Shown: positions 13,039 to 20,293 of the stretch, one piece after another
Numbering within the stretch: position 1 is the stretch's first letter
Layout: the number at the start of each line of letters is the position of its first letter
From: a virus
Direction: 5' to 3' (one strand)
Virus record (IMG/VR): IMGVR_UViG_3300033141_003288
Coordinates: 1-20,324 of that record
DNA length: 20,324 nucleotides
Translations under genes and position numbers: made by a program
The notes under the pieces: model-generated
Seen by the model: the letters and a program-made list of their open reading frames with translations, nothing else
What the model was told of the DNA's origin: nothing
Database searches by the model: none

Positions 13039-13102
13039 ACTATATCTTGTGGTGTTTTACTTATTTTCGTCTTAAACACCACTATATTTTGTGGTATTGA
13101 CA
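13039..13102. promoter_or_regulatory. Duplicated operator-like sites
   Basis: ACTATATCTTGTGGTGTT (13039-13056) and ACTATATTTTGTGGTATT (13081-13098) match at 16 of 18 positions and start exactly 42 bases apart, four DNA turns. The second overlaps the -35 box of the rightward promoter at 13097. Inverted copies of the core lie at the leftward promoter: CTTGTGGTATT (minus strand, 13464-13454) and GATGTGGTATAA (minus, 13489-13478, overlapping its -10). This suggests one regulator acting on both promoters. Confidence 0.5.
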
Positions 13103-13126
13103 ATTTACGGTAACTTGTGCTATAAT
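13097..13126 (+). promoter_or_regulatory. Consensus sigma-70 promoter, rightward
   Basis: TTGACA (13097-13102), 18-base spacer, TATAAT (13121-13126). Transcription would start near 13133, exactly where a 9-bp perfect hairpin (GTTATGAAA ... TTTCATAAC) begins. Both hexamers are perfect. Confidence 0.75.
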
Positions 13127-13423: not shown

Positions 13424-13572
13424 TTACAAACGCTCGACTCAAAGAACAATTGTAATACCACAAGTATACTACTACGATTATACCACATCTTTTTTATTTT
13501 GTCAAGTCCCCTGACTTAAAGTACCTGATTTTTGGCTCTGTTAAAATTGTTACAAAAGAGTTACAAACGCTC
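13424..13572. repeat. TTACAAACGCTC repeats around the leftward promoter
   Basis: Exact 12-base copies at 13424-13435 and 13561-13572, and a partial copy TTACAAAAGAG at 13550-13560 directly abutting the second (11-base step). They flank the leftward promoter (13477-13505) on both sides, as would binding sites for a regulator. Confidence 0.45.
13477..13505 (-). promoter_or_regulatory. Consensus sigma-70 promoter, leftward
   Basis: On the minus strand TTGACA (13505-13500), 17-base spacer, TATAAT (13482-13477), start near 13470. It points at the HTH/small-terminase gene and late operon, about 445 bases upstream of that gene's ATG. Its transcript would run antisense through the whole candidate RNA at 13133-13364. 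The -10 box lies inside a TGTGGTATAA operator-like site. Confidence 0.75.
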
Positions 13573-13642: not shown

Positions 13643-13671
13643 TTGACATTTCTAAAGACATTGACTATAAT
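13643..13671 (+). promoter_or_regulatory. Consensus sigma-70 promoter of HNH cassette 1
   Basis: TTGACA (13643-13648), 17-base spacer, TATAAT (13666-13671), start near 13678. It is the first promoter of the continuous plus-strand early block and the first of three promoter-leader-HNH cassettes. Confidence 0.8.
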
Positions 13672-13677
13672 CAGAGT

Positions 13678-13801
13678 GCAATGAAAAAGAGCATAGCAAA
13701 AATTGGAATTGCAAAGCCACTGGAAATGACCAGTGGTATTTTTATGTCTAATTGCCTGCGGGTGCTATGCTCCGAATTCCAAGCCCGCAGGCTTTTATTT
13801 T
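13678..13801 (+). promoter_or_regulatory. HNH-associated leader RNA, copy 1
   Basis: Segment A GAGCATAGCA (13689-13698) is perfectly complementary to A' TGCTATGCTC (13763-13772). Segment B TTGGAATT (13703-13710) is complementary to B' AATTCCAA (13775-13782). Both A' and B' fill the 21-base loop of the terminator hairpin at 13754-13792, and because A precedes B and A' precedes B', the two pairings cross and cannot both be simple nested helices. Between them is a separate 7-bp hairpin, CCACTGG/CCAGTGG (13717-13723 with 13730-13736). If transcription stops at the terminator the product is a ~124-base RNA; read-through enters the decayed HNH gene. Confidence 0.6.
13754..13801 (+). terminator. Intrinsic terminator before HNH remnant
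   Basis: GCCTGCGGG (13754-13762) and CCCGCAGGC (13784-13792) form a perfect 9-bp GC-rich stem followed by TTTTATTTT. The start codon of the HNH remnant lies at 13803, directly after the T-run. Confidence 0.75.
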
Positions 13802-13802
13802 A

Positions 13803-14031
13803 ATGCCATATAAAAATAAAGAAAAACTAATTGAATTCGGAAAAAGAACTTTTGAAAACAACAGGACAAGGTTTAACGGTTGAGCATATTATACCTCTTT
13901 CAAAGGGTGGCACAAATTATATAGACAATATCGTTCCTGCGTGTAGATTTTGTAATCTAAGTAAAAATAATAGAATTTGGATGCATCAACAGCAAGAGTT
14001 TCGTTTTATGACAGAGGAGGAGGACCAATGA
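13803..14031 (+). pseudogene. Decayed HNH endonuclease (cassette 1)
   Basis: The ATG at 13803, in the same place after the terminator as in the other two cassettes, opens a frame (MPYKNKEKLIEFGKRTFENN) that stops at 13883. An overlapping frame from about 13862 gives TVEHIIPLSKGGTNYIDNIV and onwards to IWMHQQQ, closely matching the C-terminal half of the HNH protein at 19617-20207 (KDHIIPL, GGTNYIDNIVPACR, WMHQQ). The first CxxC pair and most of the N-terminal region are missing, so an internal deletion with frame change has removed half of the nuclease. The second CxxC and one catalytic-type His remain. A TTG at 13831 could start a 66-aa fragment. Its end overlaps the next ATG (ATGA). Confidence 0.7.
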
Positions 14032-16657: not shown

Positions 16658-17325
16658 TTGGAGAAATTATCAATGCAATCTGGCAACTACCTTGGTATAA
16701 AGTAATTGTAATTGCCTTTGTAGATGACATTATTTTCGTTTTGAAAACTTGGTGGTTATATTTAGTTCTTATTCTTATAATTATTATAGTCAGTATAAGA
16801 AAAAAAGAAGAAGGATTAGGAGGCAATATGACCAAGCAACAAGCCATCAGAGAAAGTATTGCCCACTGGGAGCGGATGATAGCGTGGGTAGAAAAGCAAC
16901 CGAAAATAGAAGAACCTGACAGAATTGAAATGGAATACCAGATAGGCGAAGATTGGTATGCTAAACATTGCCCACTCTGTAAACTTTATTATCGTGATGA
17001 GCTTTGCACAAATTGTCCGCTTAAAGCTGAATATGGAAAATGTGATAATGATGGTAGAAACGCTTGGCATTTAGTTTCCAGTTCACCAACTTGGGCTGAA
17101 TGGCTCAGGCACGCAAAAAAAATGTTAGAGCAGTTGAAATCGCTGGAGGAGAAGGGACTTGACAAAATGAGAAAGATTGTCTATAATAGTTTTAGACAAT
17201 CATCAGCCGAGATTATTACATCGTTTCTAATACGGGAAGTAAATTTAGATGAAAAAAGACAAATAGAGAAGTTGGAATGCGGTAAGAGCCCTACCGATTT
17301 TTTTATGGATACAACCTCCGAGTAG
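16654..17325 (+). CDS. Membrane-anchored zinc-site protein with cassette-derived tail
   Basis: 223 residues as one frame, with three parts. Residues ~15-48 hold two hydrophobic stretches (YKVIVIAFVDDIIFVL and WWLYLVLILIIIIVSI). From M59 (ATG at 16828, with AGGAGG just upstream) begins what looks like an independent soluble phage protein: TKQQAIRESIAHWERMIAWV, a four-cysteine zinc site (C106, C109, C118, C121), then TWAEWLRHAKKMLEQLKSLE. From about residue 168 onward the frame reads into the promoter and leader of HNH cassette 2, so the last ~55 residues are encoded by inserted regulatory DNA. Either two genes have fused, or translation also starts at 16828. The original end was probably near EEKG. 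Confidence 0.6.
   Translation: MIGEIINAIWQLPWYKVIVIAFVDDIIFVLKTWWLYLVLILIIIIVSIRKKEEGLGGNMTKQQAIRESIAHWERMIAWVEKQPKIEEPDRIEMEYQIGEDWYAKHCPLCKLYYRDELCTNCPLKAEYGKCDNDGRNAWHLVSSSPTWAEWLRHAKKMLEQLKSLEEKGLDKMRKIVYNSFRQSSAEIITSFLIREVNLDEKRQIEKLECGKSPTDFFMDTTSE
17159..17187 (+). promoter_or_regulatory. Consensus sigma-70 promoter of HNH cassette 2
   Basis: TTGACA (17159-17164), 17-base spacer, TATAAT (17182-17187), start near 17194. The 14 bases GGGACTTGACAAAA and the following TG are identical to cassette 3. A perfect dyad, GATTGTCTA (17175-17183) with TAGACAATC (17193-17201), covers the -10 box and start site and could be a repressor site. Confidence 0.75.
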
Positions 17326-17356
17326 GGTGGGGCTCTCACCCGAAAGGAGGTTTTTT
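17194..17356 (+). promoter_or_regulatory. HNH-associated leader RNA, copy 2
   Basis: After ~90 bases unlike copy 3, the leader aligns with it from about 17284: AGAGCCC (17285-17291), segment A, is complementary to GGGCTCT (17330-17336) in the terminator loop. Between them lies a T-rich weak hairpin at the same place as in copy 3. The terminator loop is closed by an inner GGGT/ACCC stem, where copy 3 has GGGG/CCCC. The upstream 223-aa frame stops at 17323-17325, so a ribosome finishing there would sit on the 5' arm and open the hairpin. Confidence 0.6.
17313..17356 (+). terminator. Terminator carrying the HNH ribosome binding site, copy 2
   Basis: AACCTCC (17313-17319) pairs with GGAGGTT (17346-17352), with inner stem GGGT (17325-17328) to ACCC (17338-17341), followed by a T-run to 17356. 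The 3' arm AGGAGG is the ribosome binding site for the ATG at 17360, so the same hairpin would stop transcription and hide the translation start. Confidence 0.7.
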
Positions 17357-17359
17357 ATT

Positions 17360-17950
17360 ATGGAAAACAGCAAAGAATTTTTAGAGAAGTTAGAAAATTT
17401 TATGAAGGGAAGTAAGCATTTTGCTGGTTTAACAATGATAGGATGTTACACTTTAAGCATAAAAGATTTTTTAGCCGCATTAGAATACTATATAGAAACA
17501 GGAAAAAATGTCTTGGATGAACACGCAGAAATAACGTGGGCAGGATGGAAAGACTATAATAAGCATTCAGATTACCGAATATCAAAATATACAAATAGGA
17601 AAATTGCAAAATTACAAAAACTCTTTAATAATAAAGGATTTTGGAATGTTTATTCTTTTTATCCAGAGAAAAAAATTAAGGAAATACGTGATTATCTTGC
17701 TTGGTGTAAAATAGAAAATCAAAAATTGGAAAGTTACCCAATGAAAAGATATAGGGCTTCTCTTTATACTTCACGTTCAGATATAAGAAAGAAAATCTTT
17801 GAACGAGATGGTAGGGTATGCAGATATTGCGGTTCTACTGAAAATCTCACTCTTGACCATATCATTCCTGTCAAAGATGGTGGGAAAAATACATTGGATA
17901 ATCTACAAGTTTTATGTCGTTCCTGTAATGCAAAGAGAAACAAGAAATGA
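17360..17950 (+). CDS. HNH homing endonuclease (cassette 2)
   Basis: 196 residues from the ATG 9 bases after AGGAGG; upstream codons in frame are part of the leader hairpin. The C-terminal ~50 residues are a complete HNH domain: C154-x2-C157, the catalytic LTLDHIIP (D166, H167), GGKNTLDNLQVLC with N181, and C186-x2-C189 followed by N190. Residues 1-130 are an unrelated helical domain (LEKLENFMKGSKHFAGL, YYIETGKNVLDEHAEITWAG) that I do not recognise and that may set target specificity. Free-standing HNH enzymes in phages are usually homing endonucleases that nick or cut a related phage so the gene is copied in. Its stop overlaps the replication initiator ATG. Confidence 0.8.
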   Translation: MENSKEFLEKLENFMKGSKHFAGLTMIGCYTLSIKDFLAALEYYIETGKNVLDEHAEITWAGWKDYNKHSDYRISKYTNRKIAKLQKLFNNKGFWNVYSFYPEKKIKEIRDYLAWCKIENQKLESYPMKRYRASLYTSRSDIRKKIFERDGRVCRYCGSTENLTLDHIIPVKDGGKNTLDNLQVLCRSCNAKRNKK

Positions 17951-19433: not shown

Positions 19434-19462
19434 GCGAGACAGATTTTGAGGGGAGGTAAACT

Positions 19463-19492
19463 ATGAAATACCAAGTAGGTGAGGGGACTTGA
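19463..19492 (+). pseudogene. 5' stub of a gene interrupted by HNH cassette 3
   Basis: A strong GGGGAGG ribosome binding site and ATG open a frame MKYQVGE that ends after nine codons at a TGA formed by the cassette's conserved GGGACTTGACA start. A well-placed start with such an early stop is best explained by insertion. A likely continuation is the open segment after the HNH gene (20165-20293). Confidence 0.5.
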
Positions 19493-19517
19493 CAAAATGG
19501 ATAATATCCTCTATAAT
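19489..19517 (+). promoter_or_regulatory. Consensus sigma-70 promoter of HNH cassette 3
   Basis: TTGACA (19489-19494), 17-base spacer, TATAAT (19512-19517), start near 19524. It shares GGGACTTGACAAAATG with cassette 2, so the promoter is part of the mobile unit. Confidence 0.78.
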
Positions 19518-19523
19518 ATAAGT

Positions 19524-19616
19524 AATAGACAAGAGGGAAGAACAGCCCTTCCACTTTTTATTGGAAAAAATATCCTCCAAAGGGGTGGGCTGTTCGCCCC
19601 GATGGAGGATTTTTTT
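19524..19616 (+). promoter_or_regulatory. HNH-associated leader RNA, copy 3
   Basis: Segment A GAACAGCCC (19540-19548) is perfectly complementary to A' GGGCTGTTC (19587-19595), which lies in the terminator loop. A 5-bp hairpin TTCCA/TGGAA (19549-19553 with 19562-19566) sits between A and the terminator. The leader is ~93 bases and has no stop codon in the HNH frame. Compared with copy 2, both the A/A' helix and the terminator stem differ at paired positions while staying complementary. Confidence 0.65.
19572..19616 (+). terminator. Terminator carrying the HNH ribosome binding site, copy 3
   Basis: ATCCTCC (19572-19578) pairs with GGAGGAT (19604-19610), inner stem GGGG (19582-19585) to CCCC (19597-19600), then seven T residues to 19616 and the ATG at 19617. 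GGAGG in the 3' arm is the only ribosome binding site, 8 bases before the ATG. Confidence 0.75.
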
Positions 19617-20207
19617 ATGTGGACAAAAGAGAAAAAAAGAGAATATGATAAGAAATATTATAGACTACATATTGAGAAAATAAAAAATCGTCATAAAGAA
19701 TGGTATAGAAAAAATTTCGAGAAAGAAAGAGAAAAGAAAAAGAAATATAGAAAATTATATCCTGAAAAAATAAAGAAATATACGAAAAAACATTATAAAG
19801 AATATTGTGAGGAAATAAAAAAACGAAATAAAAAGTATCACGAAAAACATTCTGAACAGATTAAAAAATATATGAGAAAGTGGTATTGTGAGAATCCTGA
19901 TAAAAAACGATTATATTATATGACTCGTAGAGCAAGAAAACGAGGCGCAAAAGGTTCTTTTACTCTTGAGGAATGGCAAGCGAAATTAAAGGAATATCAT
20001 TACCGTTGTGCTTATTGCGGAAAAACGCAAGCACAACACATCAGAGAAACGGGACAAAAACTACATAAAGACCATATTATTCCACTCAAAATGGGCGGAA
20101 CAAATTATATAGATAATATTGTGCCTGCCTGTCGTAGTTGTAATTCAAGAAAACATACTTCTGTATGGATGCATCAGCAAAAGAATTCCACTTTAATAAA
20201 AAAGTAG
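19617..20207 (+). CDS. HNH homing endonuclease with repetitive basic arm (cassette 3)
   Basis: 196 residues from the ATG after the terminator T-run. Residues ~5-100 are a Lys/Tyr/Glu-rich array of loosely repeated ~13-residue units (such as YPEKIKKYTKKHYKEY and HSEQIKKYMRKWY), likely a helical DNA-binding arm. The HNH domain follows: C131-x2-C134, KDHIIPL with D152 and H153, GGTNYIDNIVPACR with N167, C172-x2-C175 and H180. Its C-terminal half matches the decayed copy at 13803-14031, so these two are relatives, while the 17360-17950 protein has a different N-terminus. It appears inserted in a small gene beginning at 19463. Confidence 0.8.
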   Translation: MWTKEKKREYDKKYYRLHIEKIKNRHKEWYRKNFEKEREKKKKYRKLYPEKIKKYTKKHYKEYCEEIKKRNKKYHEKHSEQIKKYMRKWYCENPDKKRLYYMTRRARKRGAKGSFTLEEWQAKLKEYHYRCAYCGKTQAQHIRETGQKLHKDHIIPLKMGGTNYIDNIVPACRSCNSRKHTSVWMHQQKNSTLIKK

Positions 20208-20293
20208 ACGGGAAGGAAGTTCCAGTTTCTGAAGTTTTTGGGAAATATTTGGATAGAATTCTGGAGTCTATTAAAACTGAAGGAGGCAAATAA
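20165..20293 (+). pseudogene. Probable 3' remnant of interrupted gene (or 42-aa gene)
   Basis: A frame overlapping the last 43 bases of the HNH gene continues to TAA at 20293 as FHFNKKVDGKEVPVSEVFGK then YLDRILESIKTEGGK. The region after the HNH stop looks truly coding, yet the only in-frame ATG lies inside the HNH gene with no ribosome binding site. I read it as the tail of the gene starting MKYQVGE at 19463. If so, the cassette replaced or split it near FHFN/KKVDG. It could alternatively be a small overlapping gene. Confidence 0.45.

Follow-up and report, generated by a model that had tools for sequence, protein, structure and literature searches.

Self-complementary leaders behind strong promoters precede three HNH cassettes of a phage and may attenuate nuclease synthesis

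The window analysed here is a whole virus record of 20,324 bases. It carries divergent phage genes (head-protein-like, portal-like, exonuclease, replisome organizer, and DnaC-like loader) and a large terminase (TerL) recognised via Manatee Spring phages (35 per cent identity). The right half of the window contains three HNH cassettes, all on the plus strand, of which two are intact (17159–17950 and 19489–20207) and one is decayed (13643–14031). HNH endonuclease 1 (17360–17950, plus strand) has 196 amino acids, with the HNH domain at residues 154–195 and an N-terminal part without a family match; HNH endonuclease 2 (19617–20207, plus strand) also has 196 amino acids, with the HNH domain at residues 131–181 and a lysine-rich N-terminal part. 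In the decayed gene (13803–14031, plus strand), the frame opened by the ATG at 13803 soon reaches a stop, and the C-terminal HNH part lies in a different frame; over the aligned core, this HNH 3 remnant and HNH 2 are 66 per cent identical. The homing-type nuclease domain PF01844 was found in HNH 1, HNH 2, and the remnant, and Pfam searches of the cassette proteins returned HNH-type nuclease families only, with no RuvC family match.

An earlier, sequence-only reading had proposed that HNH 1 and HNH 2 share nothing but the HNH domain. Their alignment is indeed confined to the HNH motif (44 per cent identity over 50 amino acids), with nothing significant elsewhere. The AlphaFold2 model of HNH 1 was uninformative (pLDDT of 43.7), and calling the N-terminal domains unrelated therefore reflects the absence of sequence similarity between the two proteins. 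Searches of viral and bacterial collections with peptide patterns retrieved nearly no close relatives of either HNH protein. The frame of the gene upstream of cassette 1 (16828–17325), for which no relatives were found, extends across promoter 1 and also hairpin 1, which suggests insertion of the cassette at the 3' end of this gene. Cassette 2 may interrupt a small gene (19460–19492 / 20205–20291), for which a homolog search found nothing. A well-placed Shine-Dalgarno (SD) sequence and ATG before cassette 2 open the peptide MKYQVGEGT, whose stop lies within the promoter, and an open frame (..KVDGKEVPVSEVFGKYLDRILESIKTEGGK) lies behind the cassette (20205–20291).

All three cassettes have the same layout, in which a perfect sigma-70 promoter is followed by hairpin 1 and its U-run, hairpin 2 and its U-run, and the start codon. 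The promoters (TTGACA-17-TATAAT, plus strand) are at 17159–17187 in leader 1 (12 of 12 consensus positions), 19489–19517 in leader 2, and 13643–13671 in leader 3. The last of these belongs to the third cassette, whose layout occupies 13643–13805 ahead of the frame-broken HNH remnant; neither the cassette nor its promoter figured in the earlier reading. The promoter start that had been described as common to leaders 1 and 2 lies within a 42-nt repeat that is 81 per cent identical, and in leader 1 a 9–10 nt inverted repeat (GATTGTCTA/TTAGACAATC) overlaps the -10 element.

As a signature of a module, the promoter word was rejected because it is generic: one copy, with a perfect promoter, points leftward at 13510–13477 (minus strand) and is followed by neither an HNH gene nor such a leader, and the word also occurs in 91 viral and 12 bacterial genome stretches ahead of unrelated genes. 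No such leader was seen in the stretches read around these other copies. Another perfect sigma-70 promoter, with an 18-nt spacer (13097–13126, plus strand), lies at the start of a leftward 393-aa open reading frame (ORF) and faces the promoter at 13505–13477 (minus strand) across a divergent region.

The T-rich hairpin that had been noted at corresponding positions of the two intact cassettes is hairpin 1 with its T-run, at 17280–17304 and 19536–19560. In leader 1 it has a CGGTA/TACCG stem and a 7-nt loop, AGAGCCC, followed by A and TTTTTTT; in leader 2 it has a GGAAG/CTTCC stem, the loop AACAGCC, and a T-rich tail. The terminator-like hairpin 2 (its helix is hereafter P2), with the SD embedded in its 3' arm and a T-run behind it, is likewise present at 17313–17357 and 19572–19616, immediately ahead of the start codons at 17360 and 19617. 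Its arms are AACCTCC/GGAGGTT in leader 1 (SD GGAGG at 17346–17350) and ATCCTCCA/TGGAGGAT in leader 2 (SD at 19604–19608, U-run up to the ATG). Leader 3 (13689–13799, plus strand) has hairpin 1 and its U-run at 13716–13737 and P2 at 13754–13763/13783–13792, again followed by a U-run; its hairpin 2 contains no SD, and the gene behind it is dead.

A further feature, missed by the sequence-only reading, is that each leader contains a segment A, within or ahead of hairpin 1, whose complement, segment A', forms part of upper hairpin 2. The pairs are AGAGCCC (17285–17291)/GGGCTCT (17330–17336) in leader 1, GAACAGCCC (19540–19548)/GGGCTGTTC (19587–19595) in leader 2, and GAGCATAGCA (13689–13698)/TGCTATGCTC (13763–13772) in leader 3. 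Leaders 1 and 2 have segment A in the hairpin-1 loop, leader 3 has it upstream of hairpin 1, and A' is also part of the apical stem of hairpin 2. Given the order A, P2 5' arm, A', P2 3' arm, A:A' and P2 are interleaved helices. Between the promoters and the first arm of P2 lie 55–126 nt, and the transcript holds both arms; a transcript started at the cassette's promoter has to run through the terminators, which lie downstream.

Leaders 1 and 2 agree in 53 of the 96 columns of their alignment. Compensatory changes between them, read by eye because the MAFFT alignment shifts the register of hairpin 1 by one base, affect 4 of the 5 pairs of hairpin 1, two in the apical stem, and one each in P2 and A:A'. 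Because covariation in A:A' amounts to a single pair change, it is thin, and the main support comes from a shuffling test and from the independent leader 3. In none of 2000 dinucleotide shuffles of each of the three leaders did the score for the interleaved layout with a U-run reach that of the actual sequence. When both strands of the window were scanned, a score of at least 40 was obtained by all three leaders, by leader 1 in antisense, and by one further, weak match. Compared with shuffles, folding of the whole leader is only slightly better in leader 1 (z = -1.7); for leader 2, z is -3.9.

In silico folding bears on the order of events. When the RNA ends immediately ahead of P2's 3' arm, A:A' is part of the MFE fold of every leader. 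In the complete leader RNA, P2 is ahead by about 4 kcal/mol in leader 1 and 6.5 kcal/mol in leader 2, and A:A' and P2 are nearly tied in leader 3. Under free folding, the probability that the SD is unpaired is 0.008 in leader 1 and 0.000 in leader 2; with A:A' enforced, it rises to 0.63 and 0.85, respectively. The SDs of these two leaders are also hidden on longer read-through transcripts from upstream. Since these energies ignore pseudoknots, A:A' and P2 might coexist as kissing loops rather than exclude each other.

Considering these elements, their complementarity, and the computed accessibility of the SD, we think that each leader is probably a cis-acting attenuator, in which a terminator that also sequesters the SD competes with an antiterminator and keeps the synthesis of a putative free-standing HNH homing endonuclease low. 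Transcription would begin at the strong sigma-70 promoter, and the nascent RNA would first expose segment A together with hairpin 1, which would act early as a weak terminator, followed by P2's 5' arm and then A'. As A' emerges, A:A' would pair, keeping P2 open and letting the polymerase read on; in leaders 1 and 2, the SD would be free in this state. Once its 3' arm is out, P2 would compete and terminate transcription in the U-run that precedes the start codon; transcripts that read through would, in leaders 1 and 2, have their SD hidden by it. As a result, the nuclease would be made in small amounts or only under certain conditions, strong as the promoter is, which would limit the cost to the phage. 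The predicted formation of A:A' before P2, with release of the SD, would match a terminator/antiterminator attenuator that also controls translation. This reading is based on three leaders of one phage, from which we infer termination itself, the antiterminator role of A:A', and the homing activity of the nucleases.

The hairpin 2 component is widespread. The device CCTCC..GGAGGNTTTTTT..ATG, a terminator whose 3' arm contains the SD and which has a U-run ahead of the ATG, occurs at at least 120 viral places before many types of gene. Among the matches listed, 54 genes behind the device (80 loci) include seven homing endonucleases or fragments, and six of 53 once a duplicate (L280 = L295) is removed. 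These are a NUMOD4-HNH gene (L301), a GIY-YIG gene (L319), DUF559-type genes (L280 = L295 and L305), a gene of a further homing type (L317), and a fragment resembling these (L269); tail, terminase, exonuclease, regulator, and other genes make up the remainder. Compared with control ORFs of the same loci, for which the count of 1/129 comes from phmmer with these queries and a motif search, homing-type genes are enriched (7/54; Fisher P-value of about 0.001), also without the duplicate (6/53; P-value of about 0.003). In several loci (L303, L275, and others), CTAAATA-type sequences resembling late promoters are found in the loop of SD-containing terminators before T4-like structural genes, so that a single element may serve there as terminator, late promoter, and SD.

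This wide distribution raises the possibility, which we regard as unlikely but the strongest of the alternatives, that hairpin 2 is just such a common phage SD-terminator, insulating the cassette from upstream transcription and lowering translation, with A:A' and hairpin 1 secondary, and that the leaders are alike through cassette duplication within the phage, divergence or replacement of the nucleases having followed later. The presence of the device before so many gene types fits this explanation, as do the close relationship of HNH 2 to the HNH 3 remnant (66 per cent over the core) and the 53 of 96 columns shared by leaders 1 and 2. Against it stand the interleaved complementarity, which beats 2000 of 2000 shuffles in every leader and which leader 3 retains with different arms, and the promoters placed upstream of terminators that their own transcripts must then pass.

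Two other explanations place the function outside such cis folding. The leader RNA might itself be the regulator: termination at hairpin 1 or hairpin 2 would release short RNAs, whose loop AGAGCCC or AACAGCC would pair with hairpin 2 of other transcripts. The 7-nt loops of hairpin 1 in leaders 1 and 2 are fully complementary to hairpin-2 segments, and with terminators behind a strong promoter, most of the RNA made would be short; nevertheless, the complementarity is already explained in cis, the apical loops of the MFE folds expose only 3–5 nt of A', and no Rfam relative was found, making regulation in trans improbable. Even less probable is control at the DNA level, in which the nuclease, as for I-TevI (PMC2988022), or a phage repressor would bind the promoter region and autorepress transcription, RNA folding being incidental. 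The inverted repeat across the -10 of leader 1 would suit such an operator and I-TevI provides the precedent, but no matching inverted repeat was seen in leaders 2 and 3, and the leaders resemble each other most strongly in features that follow the start site and close with U-runs. We retain the cis-acting attenuator as the preferred reading.

Whether the leader is a regulatory module conserved or shuffled apart from the nuclease, as had been suggested earlier, received a mixed answer. In favour of it, one layout stands before nucleases whose N-terminal parts lack sequence similarity; its shape is kept while its sequence changes, as seen in the compensatory changes and in the different arms of leader 3; and the terminator-with-SD component precedes other homing endonuclease families in other phages. 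Conversely, the promoter is not specific to nucleases, and the terminator-SD device also precedes non-nuclease genes. The expectation that the full leader accompanies other nucleases in other phages was not borne out: in a search that covered exact patterns and one HNH family (relatives from viral contigs), it was absent upstream of 76 HNH relatives, where only two weak architecture matches were found (2.6 per cent, compared to 4.6 per cent in shuffles). A leader-core pattern gave 27 GC-rich, chance-like matches in viral contigs, none with such a leader; these viral scans used exact patterns, and the collections may omit very near records. In the nearest relatives by TerL (Manatee Spring phages MW202743, with 35 per cent identity, and MW202601) and in an HNH phage (MW202615), no leader was found after a promoter. 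Within one phage, duplication of a cassette followed by divergence of the nuclease explains the sharing as well as shuffling does.

A broader version of the module is a sequence-free attenuator defined by structure only (promoter, A, terminator, P2 5' arm, A', P2 3' arm, and U-run), which compensatory change would maintain and which phages would place ahead of unrelated cargo, nucleases included, as a portable limiter of expression. We consider it doubtful; if true, a newly inserted cassette could come with a promoter of its own and do the host phage no harm. Two unrelated viral contigs with non-HNH ORFs (L098, minus strand, position 801; L135, minus strand, position 2725) have the layout of the three leaders in very strong form, with perfect promoters and helices of 13–16 bp; they are picks from 42 loci pulled by a promoter/CCTCC/GGAGG pattern and as such give no frequency estimate. 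In both, A:A' is the MFE structure before the 3' arm of P2 emerges, and at full length the MFE structure contains P2 in L098 and A:A' in L135. Their short ORFs of unknown kind are possibly moron-type cassettes.

Each part of the proposed attenuator has phage precedents; only the combination looks new, and in the open-access literature we found no paper uniting an antiterminator, a homing endonuclease, and a leader. In T4 and Aeh1, I-TevI, SegB, and MobE have SD-hiding hairpins on early transcripts, from which late transcripts escape by means of a late promoter, and mobE and segF have intrinsic terminators at their 5' ends (PMC2988022, PMC3014915); terminators and SD-hiding hairpins that limit phage homing endonucleases thus have a precedent (PMC2988022). 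The leaders described here resemble these systems in that a homing endonuclease would be kept low by an SD-hiding hairpin and an intrinsic terminator near the 5' end. They differ in uniting terminator and SD hairpin in one structure with a competing interleaved helix, and in having the promoter upstream of the whole hairpin, so that their own transcript contains it in full and relief cannot come from promoter choice. With phage SD-terminators (CCTCC..GGAGG-U6-ATG), leaders 1 and 2 share the design of hairpin 2; in contrast, the SD-terminator loci examined lack an adjacent sigma-70 promoter with hairpin 1 and a strong A:A', and some have a T4-type late-promoter-like loop sequence.

Attenuators as a general class likewise combine a promoter, a leader, a terminator-like hairpin with a U-run, and an alternative earlier helix, but here there is no common leader peptide, conserved aptamer, or Rfam match, and A' is in the loop region of the terminator rather than in its stem. 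Leader-peptide attenuation was rejected as a common mechanism because leader 3 has a 40-codon frame, whereas leaders 1 and 2 have no comparable frame with a start. A group I intron P3/P7-like pseudoknot was also dismissed, as the leaders are too short and match nothing in Rfam, and so were known RNA families in general: none reached the Rfam gathering score, and leader 2 gave only sub-threshold, chance-level matches. HEARO, the omega RNA of IscB, is similarly an RNA element ahead of an HNH gene, but the leaders are much shorter and the proteins are small HNH enzymes without a RuvC family match; a HEARO search of leaders 1 and 2 with E-values up to 1 gave no match.

Homing endonuclease genes need enough expression to spread and too little to hurt their phage. 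T4 solves this by timing, with a late promoter inside the SD-hiding hairpin, and the three cassettes described here seem to do so by braking a strong promoter with a self-contained RNA attenuator. The enrichment of SD-terminators before unrelated homing nucleases points to convergent 'brakes' on selfish nuclease cassettes as a testable general rule.

HNH genes of other viral contigs often have promoters of their own: 9 of 69 HNH relatives have one within 130 nt, compared to 1 of 131 other ORFs (P-value = 0.0003). Often this is a near-consensus sigma-70 promoter whose -10 element stops 6–8 nt short of the start codon (start codons at L148 2251, L149 2149, L169 2185, L206 2050, L213 2125, and L197 2185), and their mRNAs are predicted to be leaderless. 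In L155, at about 2060–2150, a promoter lies within the inverted repeat GTTTATTGATGCCAT / ATGGCATTCAATAAAC; by analogy with the arrangement of T4 homing endonucleases, this repeat would hide the ATG on read-through transcripts only.
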